NCBI RefSeq assembly: GCF_011734195.1
Contig: NZ_JAANTH010000001.1
Span: forward strand, 310,001 to 374,000
Direction: 5' to 3'
Length of the DNA stretch: 64,000 bases
Source of the DNA: Halobacterium sp. R2-5
Lineage (GTDB): Archaea > Halobacteriota > Halobacteria > Halobacteriales > Halobacteriaceae
The position numbers and the translations under genes are program-made. The notes below the pieces were generated by a model. That model made no database searches, was not told the DNA's origin, and saw only the letters and a program-made list of their open reading frames with translations. This document shows, piece by piece, positions 34,772 through 47,108 of this stretch; position 1 is the first letter of the stretch, and each line of letters begins with the position of its first letter.

Positions 34772-34844
34772 GGGCGCGTAGCTCAGCGGACAGAGCACTT
34801 GGTTCCGGACCAAGATGTCAGGGGTTCAAATCCCTTCGCGCCCG
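34772..34844 (+). tRNA. tRNA-Arg (anticodon CCG)
   Basis: A 73-nt cloverleaf is complete. The acceptor GGGCGCG pairs with CGCGCCC and has discriminator G; the D arm is GCTCAGCGGACAGAGC, the anticodon stem is CTTGG/CCAAG around TTCCGGA (anticodon CCG), and the T arm has loop TTCAAAT. It decodes CGG. No CCA is encoded and no intron is present. Its last 22 nt recur at 34971-34992. Confidence 0.97.
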
Positions 34845-34907
34845 CTTTTCAGGGACCCGCACCGGACAGCGACGCACCTGTCGCTGTCCGTGCGGTGATG
34901 GCGTAAA

Positions 34908-34992
34908 CGGGCGAGGATTTGAACCCTGGAAGTCGCAACCGCGAGCGCAGCGAGCGGTCCGTCTTCCTCCGGTTCAAATCCCTTCGCGCCCG
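34908..34992. repeat. tRNA-Arg-derived inverted pair: degenerate inverted and exact direct copies of the 3' end
   Basis: 34971-34992 repeats exactly the last 22 nt of tRNA-Arg (34823-34844). 34908-34929 is a degenerate inverted copy containing GGATTTGAACC. The two can form a stem of about 18 bp around a loop that holds CCGCGAGC/GCGAGCGG. A TTTTTT tract follows at 34998-35003. It could be an integration scar or a structured terminator. Confidence 0.75.
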
Positions 34993-35052
34993 TGTACTTT
35001 TTTACTTCGTCGGGTTTCCTCGGTCGCTGCGCTCCCTGCGGGAACCACTCCT

Positions 35053-37408: not shown

Positions 37409-37732
37409 CTACGCCCCGTCCGCCGCGGCGTCGTCCTCGCCGTCGCGCTCGGTCACGCCCTCTCCGCGTTTTGCGGTGACGGTGACCGTGTCGCCGTCGA
37501 CGCGGACGTGGTAGCCGCCGGCTGTGAACTCGACGGCGACGGCCGCGCCGTCCGTGACGAGCGCGTTCAGCGCTTCCGGGTCGACGTGCTCGCTCAGTGG
37601 CGGATCCAGCACGCCCGCGACGTCCCGTGGCTCCCCGTACTCGAAGACGGCGATGGATTCGGTGACGGCGACGCTCGCGGTGACGGCGGACCAGTCGTAC
37701 TGCTGTCGCACTCCCTGGAACCCCACATCCAT
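37409..37732 (-). CDS. HalOD1 output domain protein
   Basis: This 107-residue protein (longer, 122 residues, if GTG 37777 is used) contains one HalOD1 domain. Its pattern is TASVAVTESIAVFEYGEP, VLDPPLSEHVDPEALNALV and YHVRVDGDTVTV. HalOD1 occurs as a stand-alone or receiver-linked output module in haloarchaeal signalling; its target is unknown. The ATG at 37732 is preferred because a palindrome at 37744-37759 would then lie in the control region. It faces away from the small wHTH gene at 37929. Confidence 0.75.
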   Translation of the reverse strand: MDVGFQGVRQQYDWSAVTASVAVTESIAVFEYGEPRDVAGVLDPPLSEHVDPEALNALVTDGAAVAVEFTAGGYHVRVDGDTVTVTAKRGEGVTERDGEDDAAADGA

Positions 37733-37743
37733 GGCGATCCCTA

Positions 37744-37759
37744 GTGAATTATGATTCAC
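37744..37759. promoter_or_regulatory. Palindrome GTGAATTATGATTCAC upstream of the HalOD1 gene
   Basis: GTGAAT and ATTCAC are perfect inverted half-sites with a 4-nt spacer. The position 12 nt upstream of the chosen ATG suits an operator. If translation starts at 37777, it would be coding sequence instead. Confidence 0.45.
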
Positions 37760-37871
37760 TTCGCGGAAAAAAGCCACTGGCCGAATCGGACGGTCGGTCG
37801 TGAGTCGGAGTCCGCGGCCGCCCGTTTCGAGGAGTGGGACTCCGATGCGGTCGACGCATCGGCCACAAATA

Positions 37872-37891
37872 TTTTATACCACATTAATGTG
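37872..37891 (+). promoter_or_regulatory. TATA element and CACATTAATGTG palindrome before the first small wHTH gene
   Basis: TTTTATA (37872-37878) is immediately followed by the perfect 12-nt palindrome CACATTAATGTG (37880-37891). The layout suggests repressor control. The A/T-rich stretch is unusual for this genome. The gene starts at 37929, implying a leader of about 25 nt. Confidence 0.55.
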
Positions 37892-37928
37892 TTGACGAAA
37901 TGACGGGATAAGCTGAAACCGTGTAACT

Positions 37929-38282
37929 ATGTCCGCGAACTCAAACACGTGCGAAAATTCGGGGGAGGAGCGGTCGCTGAACGCCGTCTTCTCGGCCCTG
38001 AGCCACCCGGTTCGCCGCCACGTCCTCGCGACGATTCACGACCCTCCAACCCAGGCGAGTGGTGAGTTCCGACCGGAGGACTTCGTTCGGCGCGACGGCC
38101 CGCGCGAGCGACCCGTGCTCGAACTGTACCACAACCACCTGCCGCGGCTCGACTCGGCGGGGTTCGTCGACTGGGACGACGAGACGAACACCGTCACGCG
38201 CGGCCCCCGCTACGCGGAGATCGAGTCCGTCCTCTCCGTGCTCCAGGCCAACAGCGACGCGCTCCCCGGCGACTGGCCGTAG
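37929..38282 (+). CDS. Small winged-helix (DUF7344-like) protein 1
   Basis: The 117-residue protein has the pattern of a short haloarchaeal wHTH family: NAVFSALSHPVRRHVLATIHD, then VLELYHNHLPRLDSAGFVDWDDETNTVTRG. The second segment is the recognition helix and wing. It lacks a sensor domain. Two relatives lie at 39124 and 43709, each next to a Bat/HTH-10 gene. It probably acts as a DNA-binding regulator; the target is unknown. A palindrome overlaps its promoter. Confidence 0.8.
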   Translation: MSANSNTCENSGEERSLNAVFSALSHPVRRHVLATIHDPPTQASGEFRPEDFVRRDGPRERPVLELYHNHLPRLDSAGFVDWDDETNTVTRGPRYAEIESVLSVLQANSDALPGDWP

Positions 38283-38387
38283 CCGGGACGGGGCTCCCGC
38301 TCCGACCGGGCTTCGCCCCGCTCACGATTCTCCGGCGACCGGCCCGGCCGCCCGTCGAGCTTTCGGGATGCGACCCCTTCTAGGCGT

Positions 38388-39053
38388 ATGAGTATCGTCA
38401 CCGAATTCACCATCCCGGCGTCGTCGTTCGCGCTCGGGCGGACGTTCGAGGCCGTCCCGGACGTGACCGTCGAGGTCGAGCGGCTGGCGACCCACAGCCG
38501 CGAGTGGGTGATGCCGTTCGTCTGGGTGACCGGCGACGACCTCGACGCCGCGGAGGCGGCGCTCCGCGCGGACCCGACCGTCGAGAGCCTGCAGCGCCTG
38601 GACGCCCGCGACGGCGTCGCGGAGTTCGGCGTCGAGTGGAGCGAGGACGTCCAGGCGCTGGTCGATCAGATCGTCGACCAGCACGGCATCGTCCAGGAGG
38701 CGGAGGCCGCCGACGGGACGTGGTTCCTGGAACTCCGGTTCACCGACCAGGAGGCGGTCGGGGAGTTCCGCGCGTACTTCCACGACCGCGACTACGGCTT
38801 CGAACTGCAGCGCCTCTACGAGGGGCTGCCGCCGAAGGAGCGCGAGTACGACCTGACCGCCGAACAGTACGAGGTGCTCGTCGCGGCCCTCGAAGCCGGC
38901 TACTTCGACGTGCCCCGCGAGGCGGCGGGAAGCGACCTCGCCGCGGAACTGGATATCTCGACGAACGCCGTCTCTCAACGGCTGCGCCGGGCGACCCGGA
39001 ACCTCACGCGGAACACGCTCGCGGTCTCGACGGACTCGGAGCACGAGGAGTGA
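38388..39053 (+). CDS. Bat-type HTH-10 transcriptional regulator 1
   Basis: The 221-residue protein has an N-terminal β-rich Bat-like ligand domain (MSIVTEFTIPASSFALGRTFEAVPDVTVEVERL). A C-terminal HTH-10 domain follows at about residue 158: YDLTAEQYEVLVAALEAGYFDVPREA, then LAAELDISTNAVSQRLRRATRNL as the DNA-binding helices. Relatives regulate bacterioopsin and many other haloarchaeal genes. No PAS or GAF sensor is present, so it may answer a small ligand or a partner protein. Confidence 0.9.
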   Translation: MSIVTEFTIPASSFALGRTFEAVPDVTVEVERLATHSREWVMPFVWVTGDDLDAAEAALRADPTVESLQRLDARDGVAEFGVEWSEDVQALVDQIVDQHGIVQEAEAADGTWFLELRFTDQEAVGEFRAYFHDRDYGFELQRLYEGLPPKEREYDLTAEQYEVLVAALEAGYFDVPREAAGSDLAAELDISTNAVSQRLRRATRNLTRNTLAVSTDSEHEE

Positions 39054-39123
39054 CGCCGCCCCCACGTAAGGACCCTCGAAATCAAAGCACGGGGTGTTTG
39101 CTCGTCACTCGCCTCGGGGACGT

Positions 39124-39483
39124 ATGAGCAATCAGGAGGGGGACGCGACGGAACGCACTGACTCGCTCCCCCGCGACGACGTCTACGCCCTCCTCGCGAG
39201 CGAGCGGCGGCGGTACGTGCTCTCGGTGCTCCGCGAGCACGAGTCGCTGTCGCTGCCGGACCTCGCCGACGAGGTCGCGCTCCGCGAACACGACGCCCCG
39301 CTCCCCCAGGTTCCCGAGGACGCGGTCTTGCAGGTCTACCTCTCGCTGTGGCACGTTCACGTCCCCAAACTCACTGACGCCGACGTCGTCGCCTACGACC
39401 AGGACCGGGACATCGTCACCCTCGCCGAACACGCTCAGGCCGTCGAACAGTTCGCGCTCGCGGACGCCGACCAGTCGACGTAG
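39124..39483 (+). CDS. Small winged-helix (DUF7344-like) protein 2
   Basis: The 119-residue protein shares its layout with the genes at 37929 and 43709: DDVYALLASERRRYVLSVLREHESLSLPDLADEVA and LYLSLWHVHVPKLTDADVVAYDQDRDIVTL. The ATG at 39124 is used because upstream codons match no relative. It follows the HTH-10 gene by 70 nt on the same strand and is convergent with the large PAS/GAF regulator. Confidence 0.82.
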   Translation: MSNQEGDATERTDSLPRDDVYALLASERRRYVLSVLREHESLSLPDLADEVALREHDAPLPQVPEDAVLQVYLSLWHVHVPKLTDADVVAYDQDRDIVTLAEHAQAVEQFALADADQST

Positions 39484-39669
39484 CGTCCGTCCGGCTACTG
39501 CGTGCTGCGGCGGCCCGAGACGGACGCGACCTCGAGTTCGTCCCACGTCCGCTCGAACGCGGCGAGGCTGACGACTCCCTCACCGCCGTCCCCCTGCCGG
39601 CCTGTGGGGTCGGCGGCGTCGTACGTCGGCTCGTGACGGATGCGGTTAGCGTCGGCGGCCCCTGCGGGG

Positions 39670-42600
39670 TCAGGCCGGCGAGGCGAACACCGCGTCGAAG
39701 ATCTTCCGCTCGGCCTTCCGGAGGTGCTGGTGGAACGTCGGTGGCGCGACGCCGATCGACTCCGCGACCTCCTCGCCGGTCGCCTCCCGCGGCCACTCGA
39801 AGAAGCCCGCGTGGTGGGCGACTTCGAGGGCGGTGCGCTGGCGGTCGGTGAGCTCCGAGAGCGCGCGCTGGGCGCGCTCGGAGCCGCCCCGCTCGCGGCT
39901 CATCTGCCGGCGCCGGAGCATCTCGGCGTCGGGGTAGGCGTCCTCGACGGCGTCGATGACCCGGCGGACGTCGGCGGTCGGCGCCAGGTGAATCGTCAGC
40001 CGCAGGTCGGCGTCCTCGATGACCGCGTTGTCGATGTAGCCGCCCAAGGACGCCACCACTGAGAGCACCGGCGGGTCGGTCGTCCGGAGCTCGAAGGTCG
40101 CCGGGTCCTCGTCGTCCGTCTCGACGGCGACGTCATCCCAGTACGGGACCGCGTCGACGAGCGCGTGAAGTGTGTCTACGGCGTCCGGGGTGGCCGTTCC
40201 GTAGACGAGGAACTCCCCGCCGCCGACGGCGACGGTGTCGTCGAGGGTGATCGTTCCGTTCGAGCTCTCGGAGGCGCCGAACGCCGCGAACACGTCCTCG
40301 ATCTGGAAGTCGAGTTCGACGAGCTCGTCGCTCATCAGCGCGCGCTTGCGCTCGGTCGCCGCGATGCTGTGCCCGACGATCTCGCCGAGCTGCGTGATCA
40401 CGTCCAGCTCGGCCCCCGTGAACGCGTCGGGGCGCGCGGCGTAGACGTTCAACACGCCGTACGTCGTCCCCTCGTGGACGACGGGAATCGCGGCCGACGA
40501 CCGGAAGTCGTACTCCTCGACGGCCGACTCCCAGGGGCCGTGGCGGCCTTCCGTGCGGACGTCGTTCGTGACGTCGACCTCGCCGGTGCGGAGCGCGCGG
40601 CCGGTGGGGCCCTCGCTGCGTTCGTCGGCTGGGTCCACCGAGATGGTGACGTCGTCGAGGTAATCCTCCACGCCGGCCTCCGCCCGGAGGTTCACGGTCT
40701 GCGTGTTGGTGTCGACGTCGCCGATCCACGCGAACTGGTAGGAGTCGGTGGCGGCGAGGCGCTCGCAGACGGTTTCCTCGATCTCCTCGCGCGTGGACTG
40801 TTCGATGACCGCGCCCGTGATGTCCCGAACGACCTCGTTGAGGCTGTTCAACGCCGCCAGCTGCTCGCGCTGGTGGACCAGCTCCTGCTCGTAGTCGTGC
40901 TGTTCGATCGCGGCCGCGAGGACGTTCGCGATAGCCTGGACGAACGTCGCGTCGTGGTCGGCGAACTCCCCCCGGTCCGTGTCGTGGGTGCCCAGAATTC
41001 CCCAGGGGTCGTCCGTGGGTCCGATGATAGTGCTGATGCCGCTCTCGACGTCGTGGTTCCCCAGCAGGTCGGGACCGCTGAACCGCGGCTCCGTGTCGAG
41101 GTCCTCGACGATGACTGGCTCCTCGGTCTCCAGCGTGTACGCGGCCTGCGAGTCGGCTTCGACCGCCGACACGGTCGCTTCCCCGACGATGTCGTCCTGC
41201 CAGCCGACGCCCTGCCGGAGCAGTAGCTCTTCGCTGGCTTCGTCGAGGTCCATCACCTTGCAGTAGTCCGTGTCCAGCGTCTCGGTGACGAGCTCGGCGG
41301 CTTCCGCGAACAGGTCGTCCAGTTCCACGCCGCCGAGCGCCTTCCGCCCGATTTCGGCCACCGCCTCCTGCTGGCGCACCCGATTCTCGAGCTCGCGCTC
41401 GTTCTCCACGCGCTCGGTGACGTCCTGGGACATCCCCATCGCCGCGAACACGTCGCCGTTCTCGTCGCGGACCGGAACGAAGTGGAACTGGTAGACGCGG
41501 TCGCCGACGGAGTCCGCGAACTCCGAGGGCTCGCCGTCCAGCGCCGCCTCGTACCCCGGCACGACCACGTCGGCGAGCTCCTCGGACAGCACGTCCGGGA
41601 GGTAGCCGCCCTCGAAGTCCTCTCGGGTCTTGTCGGTGTGCCCCTCGGGCGTCCCGCCGAACGTGGTGTAGTGGAGGTCCCGATCGACGAGCGCGACTGC
41701 ACCGTTCGGGAAGTGCTCGGCGACCGTCTCGAAGCGCTGCTCGCGCCGGCGGAGCTCCCGTTCGCGTTCCTTTCGCTCCGTGACGTCCCGGATGATGCCC
41801 GTGAAGTAGCGCTCGCCGGCGTGCTCGTACTCGCTGAACGAGACCGACAGCGGGACCTCGTCGCCGTCGGCGGTGACGCCGGGCAGCTCCACGTGGTCCC
41901 AGTCGAGCCTGCGCTCGCCGGTCTCCATGTACCGCGTGATGCCCTCGCGGTGGGCGTCCGCGAGCCGGTCGGGCATGAGCGTCGTGAGCGGCTCGCCGAC
42001 CAGGTCCTCGGGCTCGTAGCCGAACACGTCCTCCACCGCCGGGTTCACGCTCCGGATGCAGTCGTCCTCGCCGATGGTGACGACGGCGTCCGAGGCCGTC
42101 TCGGTGACCGTCCGGTACTGTTCGAGCGTGCGCTCGCGCTCCTTCCGGTCGGTGATGTCCCGGACGTACACCGACAGGCCGGTCTCCGAGGGGTACTCCC
42201 TGATCTCCACCCACCTGCCGAGTATCTCCGAGTAGAACTCGAACTCCACGGACTCCTGGCTCGCGAGCGCGCGCTCGGTCAGCTCCCGCGGCTCGCCCTC
42301 GGCGACCTCCGGGAGTGCGTCCCAGACCCGTGACTGGAGGAGCTCCCCGACGGGCCGCCCGACCAGCTCGGCGGCGCGGTCGTTGACGTACGTGACGCGC
42401 CACTCCTCGTCGAGCGCGAAGAACGCCTCGTCGATGCGCGTGAACACGTCGTCCAGCTCGTGCCGGAGGTCGTCGCGCTGGCGTTCGAGACGCTGCTCGC
42501 GGGCCTTCCGCTCGCTGACGTCCCGACCGATGCCCGTGAAGCCGATGACGTCGTCGCTCTCGTCGACGATCGGGCCGCCCCTGAACTCGTAGGGAATCTC

Positions 42601-43479
42601 TTCGCCGTCCTTGGTCACCAGCGGTAACTCTACCGTCACCCGCTCGCGGTCCTCGACGACCGTCTGGATGTCCTCGGCGGTCTCCTCGCGCGCGCGCTCG
42701 GCGACGAAGTCGCTGGCCTCCATCGACGCTAGCTCCTCGTCGGTGTAGCCGGTGACCTCCCTGAAGCGGTCGTTCCACCGCAGCAACGTCGCGTCCGTGT
42801 CGAAGGCGTACATCACGTCGAGCTGGGTGTCCAGGAGGCTCTCGACGAACGCTTGCTCCTCTTCGAGCTCTCGTTCGTACTCGCGGCGGTCGGTCATGTC
42901 GCGGGTGACCTTCGCGAACCCGACGAGGTCGCCGTCGTCGTCGCGGATGGCGGTGATGGTGACGTTCGCCCAGAACGTCGAGCCGTCAGCGCGGACGCGC
43001 CAGCCCTCGTCCTGTACCGACCCCTCCTCGGCGGCCCGCTCCAGATTCCGCTCGGGGACGTCCTGCTCGCGGTCCTCGTCCGTGTAGAACGCCGAGAAGT
43101 GCTCGCCGACGATTTCGTCCTCGCCGTAGCCCTTGATGCGCTCGGCGCCGGGGTTCCACGTCTGGACGTACCCCTCGTCGTCGAGCATGAAGATGGCGTA
43201 CTCCTCGGTCGCGTCCACCAGCGACCGGAACCGTTGTTCCCACTGTTCGTCCTCGGGCGCGCCCGCTCCGGCGATGGTCCGCCACCAGACACGGGCGTTC
43301 GCGCCGACTTTCTTCGTCTCCAGGCGGTCGGCCTCGACCAGTCGTTCGAGGCGGGCGTACGTCGTCCGCCGCCCGAGGCCGAGGTGCTCGGCGACCTCCG
43401 GGGTCGTCCGCGGCTCCGCTGACCCCTCGAAGACCGTCAGCGTCTCCCGGAGACTCTCCGTCAACGGTCGCTGTTCCAT
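39670..43479 (-). CDS. Large PAS/GAF sensor with N-terminal wHTH and C-terminal Bat HTH-10
   Basis: This 1269-residue soluble regulator has an N-terminal wHTH (RTTPEVAEHLGLGRRTTYARLERL). Five PAS modules follow (about 82-700), the first four ending in ITDRKERE-like linkers and one containing FYTDEDR. Two GAF domains (about 720-1035), a Bat β-domain (about 1050-1200) and HTH-10 (LTDRQRTALEVAHHAGFFEWPREATGEEVAESIG) complete it. It lacks a histidine kinase domain, so it should couple redox, light or small-molecule sensing directly to DNA binding. Having DNA-binding domains at both ends is unusual. ATG 43479 is chosen over an upstream in-frame start that lacks wHTH similarity. Confidence 0.93.
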   Translation of the reverse strand: MEQRPLTESLRETLTVFEGSAEPRTTPEVAEHLGLGRRTTYARLERLVEADRLETKKVGANARVWWRTIAGAGAPEDEQWEQRFRSLVDATEEYAIFMLDDEGYVQTWNPGAERIKGYGEDEIVGEHFSAFYTDEDREQDVPERNLERAAEEGSVQDEGWRVRADGSTFWANVTITAIRDDDGDLVGFAKVTRDMTDRREYERELEEEQAFVESLLDTQLDVMYAFDTDATLLRWNDRFREVTGYTDEELASMEASDFVAERAREETAEDIQTVVEDRERVTVELPLVTKDGEEIPYEFRGGPIVDESDDVIGFTGIGRDVSERKAREQRLERQRDDLRHELDDVFTRIDEAFFALDEEWRVTYVNDRAAELVGRPVGELLQSRVWDALPEVAEGEPRELTERALASQESVEFEFYSEILGRWVEIREYPSETGLSVYVRDITDRKERERTLEQYRTVTETASDAVVTIGEDDCIRSVNPAVEDVFGYEPEDLVGEPLTTLMPDRLADAHREGITRYMETGERRLDWDHVELPGVTADGDEVPLSVSFSEYEHAGERYFTGIIRDVTERKERERELRRREQRFETVAEHFPNGAVALVDRDLHYTTFGGTPEGHTDKTREDFEGGYLPDVLSEELADVVVPGYEAALDGEPSEFADSVGDRVYQFHFVPVRDENGDVFAAMGMSQDVTERVENERELENRVRQQEAVAEIGRKALGGVELDDLFAEAAELVTETLDTDYCKVMDLDEASEELLLRQGVGWQDDIVGEATVSAVEADSQAAYTLETEEPVIVEDLDTEPRFSGPDLLGNHDVESGISTIIGPTDDPWGILGTHDTDRGEFADHDATFVQAIANVLAAAIEQHDYEQELVHQREQLAALNSLNEVVRDITGAVIEQSTREEIEETVCERLAATDSYQFAWIGDVDTNTQTVNLRAEAGVEDYLDDVTISVDPADERSEGPTGRALRTGEVDVTNDVRTEGRHGPWESAVEEYDFRSSAAIPVVHEGTTYGVLNVYAARPDAFTGAELDVITQLGEIVGHSIAATERKRALMSDELVELDFQIEDVFAAFGASESSNGTITLDDTVAVGGGEFLVYGTATPDAVDTLHALVDAVPYWDDVAVETDDEDPATFELRTTDPPVLSVVASLGGYIDNAVIEDADLRLTIHLAPTADVRRVIDAVEDAYPDAEMLRRRQMSRERGGSERAQRALSELTDRQRTALEVAHHAGFFEWPREATGEEVAESIGVAPPTFHQHLRKAERKIFDAVFASPA

Positions 43480-43708
43480 ACTCCCGGTTCGCGCTCGCGC
43501 CTTCTCAACGTTCCGTCGATGGAAACGAACGCGCGGTCTACTCGCGTCGTAACGGCGTCTGCAACGTGTAACAACCTCGTCGCCACTCCTCGTCACGTTG
43601 CCCGCACCGGCTCGAAACGCTCGGCCAAACGACCCTCATCAGTTCTAGGACGGTCTTAGGGTGACGTGGTGCGTTCCAGGAAGTACAGCAGTGCCCGACC
43701 AACTAACC

Positions 43709-44020
43709 ATGTCTCAGACAACCCCCACCGTCACGGCGACGAGCCCGAGCACCGACGACCTGACCGACACCGAACGCCACCGCCTCCTCCAGTCCGAGCG
43801 CCGCCGCGTCGCCGTCGACGTCCTCGCCGAACGGTCGGCGCCCGTCGAGCTGTCGGCGCTGGCGACCGCGATTGCCGCCCGCGAGGACGGCCGCGACCCC
43901 GGCGACGAGGCGGCCGTCGAGCGCATCGAACTCACCCTCCACCACTCTCACCTCCCGAAGCTGGCCTCGTTCGACGTGGTCGACTACGACCCCGACACGG
44001 GTCTCGTCACGCGGCACTAG
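43709..44020 (+). CDS. Small winged-helix (DUF7344-like) protein 3
   Basis: The 103-residue protein again has the short wHTH pattern: TERHRLLQSERRRVAVDVLAERSAPVELSALATAIAARE, and ELTLHHSHLPKLASFDVVDYDPDTGLVTRH. It diverges from the large PAS/GAF gene and is followed by a Bat regulator at 44170, repeating the pairing seen at 37929-38388. A less likely start lies 48 nt upstream. Confidence 0.8.
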   Translation: MSQTTPTVTATSPSTDDLTDTERHRLLQSERRRVAVDVLAERSAPVELSALATAIAAREDGRDPGDEAAVERIELTLHHSHLPKLASFDVVDYDPDTGLVTRH

Positions 44021-44169
44021 CCGCTGCGGTCCGGCGCGCTCGCGCGAGCCCCGTTGTGCGCTGCCCCGCCGCGGACGCCACCCCGTTCGACCCCACGCTG
44101 TCGGCGCGCGTCGGCCATCACTGCCAGTAGATTCATCAGCCAACGCCGAATACTGGGAGACGATACCAC

Positions 44170-44877
44170 ATGACAGAAAGCCGGTCAATCGAGCGGGCGG
44201 ACGCCATCTGCGAGGTCGAATTCGCCCTCCAGGACCCGGCGTACCCGTTCGTGGAACTCAGCGAGTCGGGCGACTGCACGCTCGAACTCGCGGAGATGGT
44301 TCCTCGCTCGGGCGGCCAGTACGCGGAGTTCTTCAACGTCACGGGCGCGGAACCGGAACACGTCGCCGAAGTGATGGCGGACACCGACGCCGTCGACGTG
44401 ACCCTCCTCGCGGAGTACGAGCACAGCCGGCTGTTCGAGTTCGTCGTCTCCGGCGGCTGTCCGGCCCGCCGGCTCGCGGAGCTCGGCGCGCTCCCGAGCA
44501 CGGTGCGCGGCGACGACGGCGACGGCCGCATCGTCGCAGCGATCCCCGAATCCCGCGACGCGGCCGACGTCGTCGGCACGTTCCTCGACGAGCACCCCGA
44601 CGCCGAGCTCGTCTCCAAGCGCGAGACGGACGCCGTCCAGCCGCTCGCCTCGCGCTCGGCGGTCTACCAGATGCTGCAGTCGCTGCTGACCGACAGGCAG
44701 CGCGAGGTCCTCGAAACCGCCTTCGAGGTCGGGTACTACGACTGGCCGCGCGAGGCGACCGGCGAGGACGTCGCGGCGGAACTCGGCATCAGCTCGGCGA
44801 CGTTCGCCGAGCACATCCGGGCCGCCGAACACAACCTCCTCACGGTGTTCGTCGGCGGCCGCGGATTCGACTTCTAG
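44170..44877 (+). CDS. Bat-type HTH-10 transcriptional regulator 2
   Basis: The 235-residue protein has a β-rich N-terminal domain (ADAICEVEFALQDPAYPFVELSESGDCTLEL). The C-terminal HTH-10 is LLTDRQREVLETAFEVGYYDWPREATGEDVAAELGISSATFAEHIRAAEHNLL. It follows the small wHTH gene at 43709 with 149 nt between them. It has no sensor domain. It is convergent with the HalOD1 gene at 44897, from which only 19 nt separate it. Confidence 0.92.
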   Translation: MTESRSIERADAICEVEFALQDPAYPFVELSESGDCTLELAEMVPRSGGQYAEFFNVTGAEPEHVAEVMADTDAVDVTLLAEYEHSRLFEFVVSGGCPARRLAELGALPSTVRGDDGDGRIVAAIPESRDAADVVGTFLDEHPDAELVSKRETDAVQPLASRSAVYQMLQSLLTDRQREVLETAFEVGYYDWPREATGEDVAAELGISSATFAEHIRAAEHNLLTVFVGGRGFDF

Positions 44878-44896
44878 AGCGCCGCCCGGGGGGCGA

Positions 44897-45205
44897 CTAC
44901 GAGCCGTCTACGGGGGAGACGACCGTGCGGCCGTCCGCGTGGACCGTCACGTCGCAGCCGTTGAAGCGGAAGGAGACGCGGCCGGACGGCCCGGCGCGGC
45001 CGCCGGACGGCTCGAACACGGTGTCGAGGGCCTCGGTGTCGACGACGTCGTAGAGCGGTTGCATGCTGAGTGGGTCGTCGCCCGTCGCCTCCGCGACGGC
45101 TTCGACGACCGTTCGGACGGCCGACTCGTCCGGGTCTCGGGTCGCAGTTACAGTGTTCCCGTCGGCGCCCGTCTCGTTCATCGAGCGGTTGTTGTACCCT
45201 GGCAT
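44897..45205 (-). CDS. HalOD1 output domain protein 2
   Basis: The 102-residue protein is a single HalOD1 domain: VRTVVEAVAEATGDDPLSMQPLYDVVDTEALDTVF, then GRVSFRFNGCDVTVHADGRTVV. The first 25 residues are a polar leader. It probably relays signals with the neighbouring regulators. A start at the second Met (SMNETG) is also possible. Confidence 0.85.
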   Translation of the reverse strand: MPGYNNRSMNETGADGNTVTATRDPDESAVRTVVEAVAEATGDDPLSMQPLYDVVDTEALDTVFEPSGGRAGPSGRVSFRFNGCDVTVHADGRTVVSPVDGS

Positions 45206-45289
45206 GAAATCACGTGCGACCGCACGTACCAGTACCGTATCCCGGACGAGGGTTAGTTCACGTCCCTACCGTACGAGGTCCGACCCGAC

Positions 45290-45703
45290 TCAGGCCGCCT
45301 CGTCGTGGACCGCCTCGATCGCGGTCACCACCGGCTCGACGGGGTCCTCGTGGTCGAGCGCGACGAAGACGCCCTCGTCGCCGAAGTAGACGCGGACGAG
45401 CGTGAACACGTCGAGGCTGGTCGCGTGGTAGCGGACGTCGCTGGCGAGCGGGAACAGCCCGTCCGTGAAGAAGTCGGTCTCGGTGAAGTCGATGTGGACG
45501 TAGGAGTGGATCTCCTCGAAGTGTTCGAGCATGTGCGCCTCGTCGTCGTAGAACGAGCGCGTGACGTCGTCGACGTAGACGGGCCTGAACTCCTCGTCGG
45601 TGAACTCGACGAACGACCGCAGGGTACCGTCGACGGCGTCCTCGGCGGCGGCTCGCATGGCTTCGACGTCCAGCGACGTGAGTCCCGAATTCGAGACCGA
45701 CAT
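45290..45703 (-). CDS. Haloarchaeal regulatory-type protein, DUF7522-like
   Basis: The 137-residue soluble protein has the pattern DGTLRSFVEFTDEEFRPVYVDD, then a helical middle part and LVRVYFGDEGVFVALDHEDPVEPVV at the end. This resembles a haloarchaeal family I believe is DUF7522, often encoded beside HalOD1 and small wHTH genes. No catalytic motif is seen. It lies downstream of the HalOD1 gene in map order on the same strand. Confidence 0.7.
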   Translation of the reverse strand: MSVSNSGLTSLDVEAMRAAAEDAVDGTLRSFVEFTDEEFRPVYVDDVTRSFYDDEAHMLEHFEEIHSYVHIDFTETDFFTDGLFPLASDVRYHATSLDVFTLVRVYFGDEGVFVALDHEDPVEPVVTAIEAVHDEAA

Positions 45704-45749
45704 GTTCCGACTTCGACTTGACTACTACTGTGGCATTAGCGTTGCGCCG

Positions 45750-46442
45750 CTACGTACCGTCCTCGCTGCCGTAGTCGGCGCCGACAGGCGGCAGCCCGCT
45801 GTCGTCGAATTCGAGGACCGCGTCGCCGTTGCCGGAGCCGTCCGCCATCCCCGTGGTCATCAGGATGCGGATGGCCGCGCGCACGCTCAGGTCCGCGTCG
45901 TAGACGCGGCTCTCCGGCACGAGCAACAGCGCGCCCTGCGTGGGGTTCGGGCTGCCGGGGACGAACACGTTGTGCGCGGGCTCGCCCGCGACGTCCTCGA
46001 CGTCGCTCGGGCTGTTCCCGGTCTTCAGGCCGAGCCGGTAGAGCCCGTCGCGCTCGTACTCGACGTACACCGCGGACTCGAAGTCCGAGCTCCGCGAGGA
46101 GACGGAGTTCGCCATCTGCTTGATGCTCCCGTAGATGGTGCGGAACACGGGAACGAAGTTGACGAGCCGGCCGGTCCGGCCGAAGACGTGCTGGCCGAGC
46201 GGGCGCTTCGCGAACGCGCCCAGTAGGGTGACCGAGACCAGCAACACCACGGCGGCGACGAGCTGCGCGAGCAGTTCGTTGTTCGCGGTGTACGTCGCGA
46301 GCCGCGTGCTCTCGACGATGGGCTGTAGCTGGCCGGCCAGCAGGTCGGAGACGAAGCGGAGGATGACGAGCGTCGCGAGCAGCGGCGCGACGAGTACCAC
46401 GCCCGCCAGAAAGCTGCTCTTCAGTGACTCCTTGAGCCGCAT
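45750..46442 (-). CDS. DUF502 family membrane protein
   Basis: The 230-residue protein begins MRLKESLKSSFLAGVVLVAPLLATLVILRFVSD, the N-terminal helix of DUF502. A second helix is LLAQLVAAVVLLVSVTLLGAFA. The conserved block RTIYGSIKQMANSV and a soluble C-terminal domain follow (PNPTQGALLLVPESRVYDADLSVRAAIRILMTTGM). The biochemical role of DUF502 is unknown. The upstream 29 in-frame codons are excluded because the family starts at this Met. Confidence 0.9.
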   Translation of the reverse strand: MRLKESLKSSFLAGVVLVAPLLATLVILRFVSDLLAGQLQPIVESTRLATYTANNELLAQLVAAVVLLVSVTLLGAFAKRPLGQHVFGRTGRLVNFVPVFRTIYGSIKQMANSVSSRSSDFESAVYVEYERDGLYRLGLKTGNSPSDVEDVAGEPAHNVFVPGSPNPTQGALLLVPESRVYDADLSVRAAIRILMTTGMADGSGNGDAVLEFDDSGLPPVGADYGSEDGT

Positions 46443-46550
46443 ACAGCGAAGGGGTACGCGGCGGAGAAAAGTGTGGTGGTGGTCGGGGGCGTTCGCTGCA
46501 GAGCTGTCACTCGCGAGAACACACGTCAACGTTTATGTTGGTGGAATAAG

Positions 46551-47108
46551 ATGACAGAACGAGTACTAATGCGAAGGGAGGGGGGACACGGCGACACGGA
46601 CCACGTTCTCGTCACCGGAACAGCCGTCACGCCCGCAGACGCGGCCGTCGAACCGGCGTCGAACGTGCTCGGAGTCGCCTACGACACCACAGCCGAAGCG
46701 TGGCTGGCGGGCGTCCAGCCCGGACCGGACCGCGTCGCCGTCGTGAGTGTCGGGGAGCACTCGCGGACGGCCGCCGAGGCGGCCAGCCCGAACGCCGACC
46801 CGGACGCCGTGGCGACGATGGCGGGTGCGGTGGAGACGGTCCCGGACGTCGGCGACGCCGCCGCCGTCGGCACACTCGTCAACAACTACCTGTCCGTGTG
46901 GGACGGCGAAACGACGGTGTACGTCGACGACGTCTCGCCGTTACTCGAGTGTGTGTCCGCGGAGGCGGCGTTCCGGTTCCTACACGCGCTGCAGTCGTGT
47001 GCGGCCGCCAACGACGCCCGGCTCGTCGCCGGCCTCGACACCGCTGGCCACCCGCCGCACGTCGCGGCGACGTTCGGCGAGCTGTTCGGAGACGTCCGCG
47101 AGGTCTAG
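46551..47108 (+). CDS. RecA-like signalling protein without P-loop, DUF7504-like
   Basis: The 185-residue protein has a RecA-type strand order without a Walker A motif: ASNVLGVAYDTTAEAWL, RVAVVSVGEHSRTAAEAA, then AVGTLVNNYLSVWDGETTVYVDDVSPLLECVSAEAAFRFLHAL. It resembles a haloarchaeal family encoded with HalOD1 and small wHTH proteins (I believe DUF7504). Binding of nucleotides is unproven. ATG 46551 has a GTTTATG element about 18 nt upstream; ATG 46569 would fit leaderless spacing better. Confidence 0.7.
   Translation: MTERVLMRREGGHGDTDHVLVTGTAVTPADAAVEPASNVLGVAYDTTAEAWLAGVQPGPDRVAVVSVGEHSRTAAEAASPNADPDAVATMAGAVETVPDVGDAAAVGTLVNNYLSVWDGETTVYVDDVSPLLECVSAEAAFRFLHALQSCAAANDARLVAGLDTAGHPPHVAATFGELFGDVREV

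Follow-up and report, generated by a model that had tools for sequence, protein, structure and literature searches.

Bat-type regulators paired with small DUF7344 and HalOD1 proteins in a genomic island at a haloarchaeal tRNA-Arg hotspot

This study analysed a 64,000-nucleotide stretch of the Halobacterium sp. R2-5 genome (the window, C1:310001-374000 of a 2.98-Mb haloarchaeal assembly) that carries a dense group of regulatory genes, named here by their lower coordinate in the window. The group comprises three DUF7344 genes encoding small winged-helix (wHTH) proteins, three BAT/HTH_10 regulators and two HalOD1 genes, in agreement with the composition that a first-pass annotation had read from the letters alone, and all members exceed the cut-offs of their families (PF24035, 27.8 bits, for DUF7344; PF18545, 26.3 bits, for HalOD1). 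Both HTH_10 (PF04967) and BAT (PF15915) are above cut-off in 38388, 39670 and 44170, and PAS and GAF domains are present in the sensor 39670 and absent from 38388 and 44170 (Pfam).

Members of these three families lie next to one another in this genome far more often than expected by chance. Gene calls in low-GC stretches relied on a codon model built from ten window genes and missed some small genes (e.g., at L037 and L326); counts were therefore based on domain matches to six-frame open reading frames, which gave 19 HTH_10, 23 DUF7344 and 21 HalOD1 stretches genome-wide. For the three heterotypic combinations, 6, 7 and 5 pairs were found within 1 kb, versus 0.35, 0.42 and 0.26 expected from a permutation of coordinates with contig membership kept; the observed counts were reached in none of 5000 shuffles, with the window itself supplying part of the signal. 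Same-family pairs within 1 kb showed no enrichment in the same permutation. The comparisons that follow used the best-scoring foreign loci, such that the fractions apply to close relatives and not to each family as a whole.

The sensor-regulator 39670 (39670..43479, minus strand), the first gene of what is termed here module 2, encodes 1269 residues with the Pfam architecture wHTH-PASx5-GAFx2-BAT-HTH_10. It had been described as carrying DNA-binding domains at both ends, five PAS and two GAF modules and no kinase; the HTH_10, PAS and GAF domains were recovered and no HisKA or HATPase match was obtained (Pfam, E up to 0.1), and the N-terminal wHTH, which is HTH_20-like, fell just below its cut-off (24.5 vs 27.0 bits). 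Sensors with an N-terminal wHTH are widespread in the class. The partner of the sensor is the divergently transcribed DUF7344 gene 43709 (43709..44020, plus strand; PF24035 6e-23, 81.4 bits when read from 43661), and a divergent upstream DUF7344 gene was found at 21 of 29 foreign sensor loci (one per genome; several come from one genus, hence not all are independent). The first-pass annotation had paired 43709 with the regulator 44170 that follows it; this candidate was rejected in favour of the sensor/43709 pair, the order 43709 then 44170 recurring only at L253 among the foreign loci with 44170 orthologues.

Comparison of 24 intergenic sequences (21 foreign loci, the window and the congener loci L325 and L326) revealed two class-wide conserved elements between sensor and DUF7344 genes, a region that spans 43480-43708 here. 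Element A has the footprint TAA-N17-TTAGG beside the DUF7344 gene; the window copy, TAAGACCGTCCTAGAACTGATGAGG on the minus strand at 43634..43658, lies approximately 50 bp before 43709 and has one mismatch to this pattern. Element B has the palindromic footprint TCCRYCGRCGGAR approximately 45 bp before the sensor; the window copy at 43511..43524, also approximately 45 bp before the sensor start, is the palindrome-like TTCCGTCGATGGAA, which reads TTCCATCGACGGAA on the sensor strand. The B pattern TCCNNCSNCGGA occurs in all 24 intergenic regions (shuffled mean 0.15, maximum 3), or in 22 of 23 in the narrower form that preceded the widening of its S position after L325 and L326 had been seen. The strict form of A occurs in 17 of 24 (shuffled mean 0.03, maximum 2), with a spacing of exactly 17 in all 17 and no match at other spacings from 10 to 25. 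Information content drops to approximately zero in both flanks of B and is low around A, except for a few positions on the DUF7344 side. Four matches to a relaxed 14-base B pattern exist in the Halobacterium sp. R2-5 genome, one of them at this locus.

The same comparison separates the two elements. At eight sensor loci without a DUF7344 match, B was present upstream in three and A in none, and in the Halobacterium sp. R2-5 genome element A precedes a solo DUF7344 gene with no adjoining sensor (L024, position 1818); therefore, A follows the DUF7344 gene and B the sensor. Element B lies 44-49 bp from the sensor start in different frames and thus is not coding. As an inverted repeat shortly before a start codon it can fold, and one of three leaders tested gave a z of -2.1, which would suit a leader-RNA hairpin of the sensor gene, controlling translation or RNA stability, in place of a DNA operator; the other two leaders, that of the window included, fold no better than shuffled sequences and no Rfam family matches, making this explanation improbable. 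The footprints suggest that DUF7344 may bind A and that the sensor may bind B.

In module 1, the first gene (38388..39053, plus strand; PF04967 6e-18, PF15915 1e-15) encodes a BAT-HTH_10 regulator without sensor domains and the downstream partner (39124..39483, plus strand; PF24035 1e-23, 84.0 bits) a DUF7344 winged-helix protein. Relatives of 38388 are present in 145 of 145 genomes sampled; the closest, 60-66% identical, belong to other families and the best match in a congener is 42% identical, which points to a gene that is patchy or transferred. Across 89 foreign loci picked by HTH_10 similarity and not by neighbour (the 29 best and the next 60), the next same-strand downstream gene was DUF7344 in 32, HalOD1 in seven, a small CxxC (zinc-ribbon) protein in three and HTH_10 in three, with a median gap of 75.5 bp between HTH_10 and DUF7344. 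The upstream side held DUF7344 in only three (one on the same strand) and HalOD1 in two, reversing the previously suggested order in which the HTH_10 gene directly follows the small wHTH gene. In a named sample of 20 loci of the 38388 lineage, the partner slot is filled by DUF7344 in Halorientalis salina and Natronococcus pandeyae and by a second HTH_10 in three Halorussus. A small zinc ribbon occupies it at ten others, which belong to Natrialba, Natronococcus, Halostagnicola and one Natrialbaceae metagenome-assembled genome. The zinc ribbon of Natrialbaceae (loci L176, L178, L182 and others, at approximately 10.7-11.2 kb) gave no Pfam match for the L176 protein. On the HTH_10 tree the window protein groups with those of Halorientalis and Natrialbaceae, and the window DUF7344 lies near that of Halorientalis.

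A motif search found no DNA element common to all HTH_10-DUF7344 gaps (motif score 195 vs 163-174 in shuffles), and a search upstream of the HTH_10 genes recovered the start codon alone and no motif. The gaps of seven loci (L100, L111, L192, L196, L198, L232 and L250) share a dyad resembling (G)GTTGTNNATACAACC that overlies a TATA-like sequence.

In module 3, the BAT-HTH_10 regulator 44170 (44170..44877, plus strand; PF15915 4e-35, PF04967 6e-22) is the first gene and stands tail to tail, across a 19-bp gap, with its partner 44897 (44897..45205, minus strand; PF18545 5e-24, 84.7 bits), a HalOD1 protein putatively of the DdfA family. The tail-to-tail HalOD1 gene was found in 18 of the 18 closest 44170 orthologues (48-60% identical); it was missing beside the next four, and in several remoter orthologues HalOD1 lies on the opposite flank of the regulator gene. 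An independently annotated plasmid record of Haladaptatus salinisoli has the same HTH_10/HalOD1 arrangement. At two loci (L255 and L259) the pair adjoins genes for a P-type ATPase (supported by a Pfam match in L255) and a CorA-like protein, a hint of a connection with metal transport that was seen at few loci. The structure model of the HalOD1 protein (pLDDT 57) was too poor for a fold search.

The DUF7344 proteins themselves reflect the company that they keep. When family members were placed on one tree and classed by context (sensor-divergent, HTH_10-downstream, short-type and TM-type), the nearest leaf belonged to the same class in 59 of 65 cases, versus 24.4 expected from shuffled labels (shuffled maximum 40); DUF7344 subfamilies thus sort by the kind of adjoining partner, with low support (0.31) for the deep node joining the sensor-type members. 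The modular pairing of small wHTH proteins with Bat-type partners put forward in the first-pass annotation was accordingly borne out, the adjacency being class-wide, far above chance and of fixed geometry. An AlphaFold model of 39124 is a winged helix (pLDDT 82), whose weak matches in the Protein Data Bank include ArsR/MarR-type regulators, none at E<=0.001. A literature search turned up neither elements A and B nor DUF7344, a name absent from all 5.39 million papers covered. A short DUF7344 alignment found no relatives in genome contigs, two viral-contig searches found none, and phage records contained no DUF7344.

At the left of the group, the HalOD1 gene 37409 (37409..37732, minus strand; PF18545 1.5e-10, 41.5 bits) is divergent from a short-type DUF7344 gene, 37929 (37929..38282, plus strand; PF24035 3.4e-10, 40.6 bits, matching the C-terminal half of the model only). 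Five such divergent pairs exist in this genome and only two were found among the foreign loci scanned, and the arrangement was rejected as a class-wide module. The four further pairs lie at C1:244-896, C3:59255, C3:165977-166610 and C3:178107-178741, three of them on contig C3, and one of their HalOD1 copies carries an in-frame stop. A perfect 12-bp palindrome, CACATTAATGTG (37880..37891), just past a TTTATA-like box and before 37929, is the single match in the window at two or fewer mismatches (0.07 expected); it was not found at the other four divergent pairs of the genome and serves as a lead only.

The setting of these genes was mapped by DNA search across twelve genomes of the genus and retrieved regions. 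The variable region begins at a tRNA-Arg(CCG) gene (34772..34845, plus strand; ARAGORN, Rfam), at whose 3' end congener DNA synteny stops in several genomes, and a duplicate of approximately 23 bp of the tRNA 3' end at 34971..34993 (plus strand; exact k-mer match) is an integration scar; copies of like kind occur in congener loci L310 and L315. Congeners retain a left flank of MATE and tRNA-Arg and a right flank of DUF502, DUF7504, CorA, dCTP deaminase and a GyrB/TopoVI-like gene, the last named by eye from the sequence. Therefore, the island spans about 34.9-45.25 kb. The first-pass annotation had treated 37409-47108 as one island; the regulator modules do belong to it, its left edge is moved to the tRNA-Arg gene, and DUF502 (at 45750) and DUF7504 (at 46569) are conserved chromosomal flank outside it. 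The gene at 45290..45703 (minus strand), syntenic in congener loci L310 and L312, is right flank in part of the genus and lies outside the modules, and its match to DUF7522, to which it had been likened, is below the Pfam cut-off (18.4 vs 27 bits, E 0.0025).

Content between the flanks varies in every congener compared, the interval being as short as approximately 1 kb in L314 and, at the other extreme, occupied by a long element in G145 (L312, L313); the tRNA-Arg site is an integration hotspot, and the cluster is missing at that site in most congeners. The G145 element contains a tyrosine-integrase-like gene (26.9 bits vs a cut-off of 27.1). It also carries Mre11/Rad50-like and methylase-like genes (G145:C54, L312-L313), the latter assigned by eye, and is possibly a defence island. 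At the same site, G126 has an HTH_10 gene followed by HalOD1, a sensor 47-56% identical over the aligned parts and a divergent DUF7344 gene 53% identical to 43709. The same gene set occurs in congener loci L325, L326 and L316; in L325 and L326 the sensor is divergent from the strand with HTH_10 and HalOD1, and the DUF7344 gene between them was called in L325.

The hotspot, the changing content and the origin of the closest 38388 relatives in other families would all suit a by-catch explanation, in which regulators pile up in plastic regions without functional links. This explanation is strongly disfavoured by the fixed orientation and spacing across families, the conserved intergenic elements, the invariant tail-to-tail pairs of the closest 44170 orthologues and the lack of clustering among same-family genes. 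A toxin-antitoxin or defence role for the small genes as cargo of the island has a next to negligible probability: they are short paired genes at an integration hotspot, where one congener has an element with integrase-like and methylase-like genes, but ten proteins gave no full PADLOC match (weak matches to regulator domains in two) and the members are single wHTH or output domains.

Combined, these comparisons suggest, with a probability of roughly one half, that the region is a genomic island at a tRNA-Arg hotspot built of two-gene modules, each a Bat-type regulator with a dedicated small protein that would cooperate with it. The sensor 39670 would bind its signal through the PAS and GAF domains and act directly on DNA without a phosphorelay. 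Both members of module 2 may bind their own promoters, DUF7344 43709 at A and the sensor at B, thereby rendering the pair autoregulated. By analogy with Brz and Brb, which act with Bat at bop, the small partner would co-act with its HTH_10 regulator at shared target promoters, and the HalOD1 and zinc-ribbon proteins that fill the slot elsewhere could be alternative co-factors. Extended to the Halobacteria, it is tentatively proposed that DUF7344 proteins are dedicated co-regulators of Bat-type HTH_10 proteins throughout the class, with subfamilies matched to partner type, and that A and B are operators of a conserved autoregulated sensor/co-regulator switch.

Several observations weigh against this interpretation. 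Pairs of the 38388 type are only partly congruent (Mantel r 0.33 over 33 pairs, reached in 0 of 5000 permutations and uncorrected for species relatedness), and other members of the same HTH_10 clade carry different DUF7344 lineages, with many weak forks in the DUF7344 tree; the first-pass annotation had made related phylogenies of the paired genes a test of its proposal, and what was found is partial congruence with exchange of the partner among orthologous HTH_10 genes. This would suit loose cooperation or simple co-location under one promoter. Sensor and DUF7344 distances showed no significant correlation (r 0.21, p 0.10). Modules 1 and 3 are missing beside most related sensors, so the full set in the window is not one fixed system. 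A promoter-like ATACAACC motif is present in a subset of the HTH_10-DUF7344 gaps; therefore, the two genes need not form one transcript. This motif, the incongruent partner trees and the separate association of A with DUF7344 genes and of B with sensors would suit a cascade without cooperation, in which the HTH_10 protein or sensor controls the adjoining small gene, the small protein then acts alone and the elements are ordinary promoter or operator sites. Such a cascade is considered rather unlikely, since DUF7344 subfamilies sort by partner type, unrelated small proteins replace each other in the same slot and Bat, the only example studied, does not work by way of brz.

HTH_10 and DUF7344 are among the most multiplied haloarchaeal regulator families, and few HTH_10 proteins have known functions. 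The conserved pairing, together with candidate operators that span a few dozen bases, provides a handle on how kinase-less sensors act on genes and opens to testing the question of why these regulators come with small partners.

Among known systems, the ArsR/SmtB repressors resemble DUF7344 in predicted fold and in weak profile matches (SmtB, E 0.08; ArsR metalloregulator, 16.6 bits), but DUF7344 remains under every family cut-off (55 bits for the ArsR model). Activators of the DmsR type share a C-terminal HTH like that of Bat (PMC1447603), whereas 44170 matches DmsR_N weakly (E 0.003, below cut-off) and has no reductase operon alongside. Like HalOD1/DdfA of Haloferax volcanii (PMC5847659, PMC10869688, PMC12240190), 37409 and 44897 are stand-alone HalOD1 proteins, and 44897 passes the NCBIfam DdfA model (NF053557; 76.5 bits against a cut-off of 70, with 37409 below at 32.9); HalOD1 scores run continuously from 33 to 77 bits around that cut-off, such that this score does not establish orthology to DdfA. 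Pairing with a BAT-HTH_10 gene is not described in the passages of those three reports that were consulted. Although the first-pass annotation knew of no described mechanism for such modules, a precedent exists: at bop in Halobacterium salinarum, Bat has been demonstrated experimentally to act with the small proteins Brz and Brb, and the Bat homologues Boa2 and Boa4 also adjoin small zinc-finger genes (PMC2253796, PMC3184054). The window modules differ from Bat/Brz/Brb in their geometry and intergenic elements and in having DUF7344 and HalOD1 as partners in place of Brz, a zinc ribbon occupying the slot only in other genomes. The likeness is that a BAT-HTH_10 regulator, in the Bat case dependent on its small partners, has such proteins encoded close to it, and that a small zinc ribbon stands in the partner slot beside some 38388 relatives.

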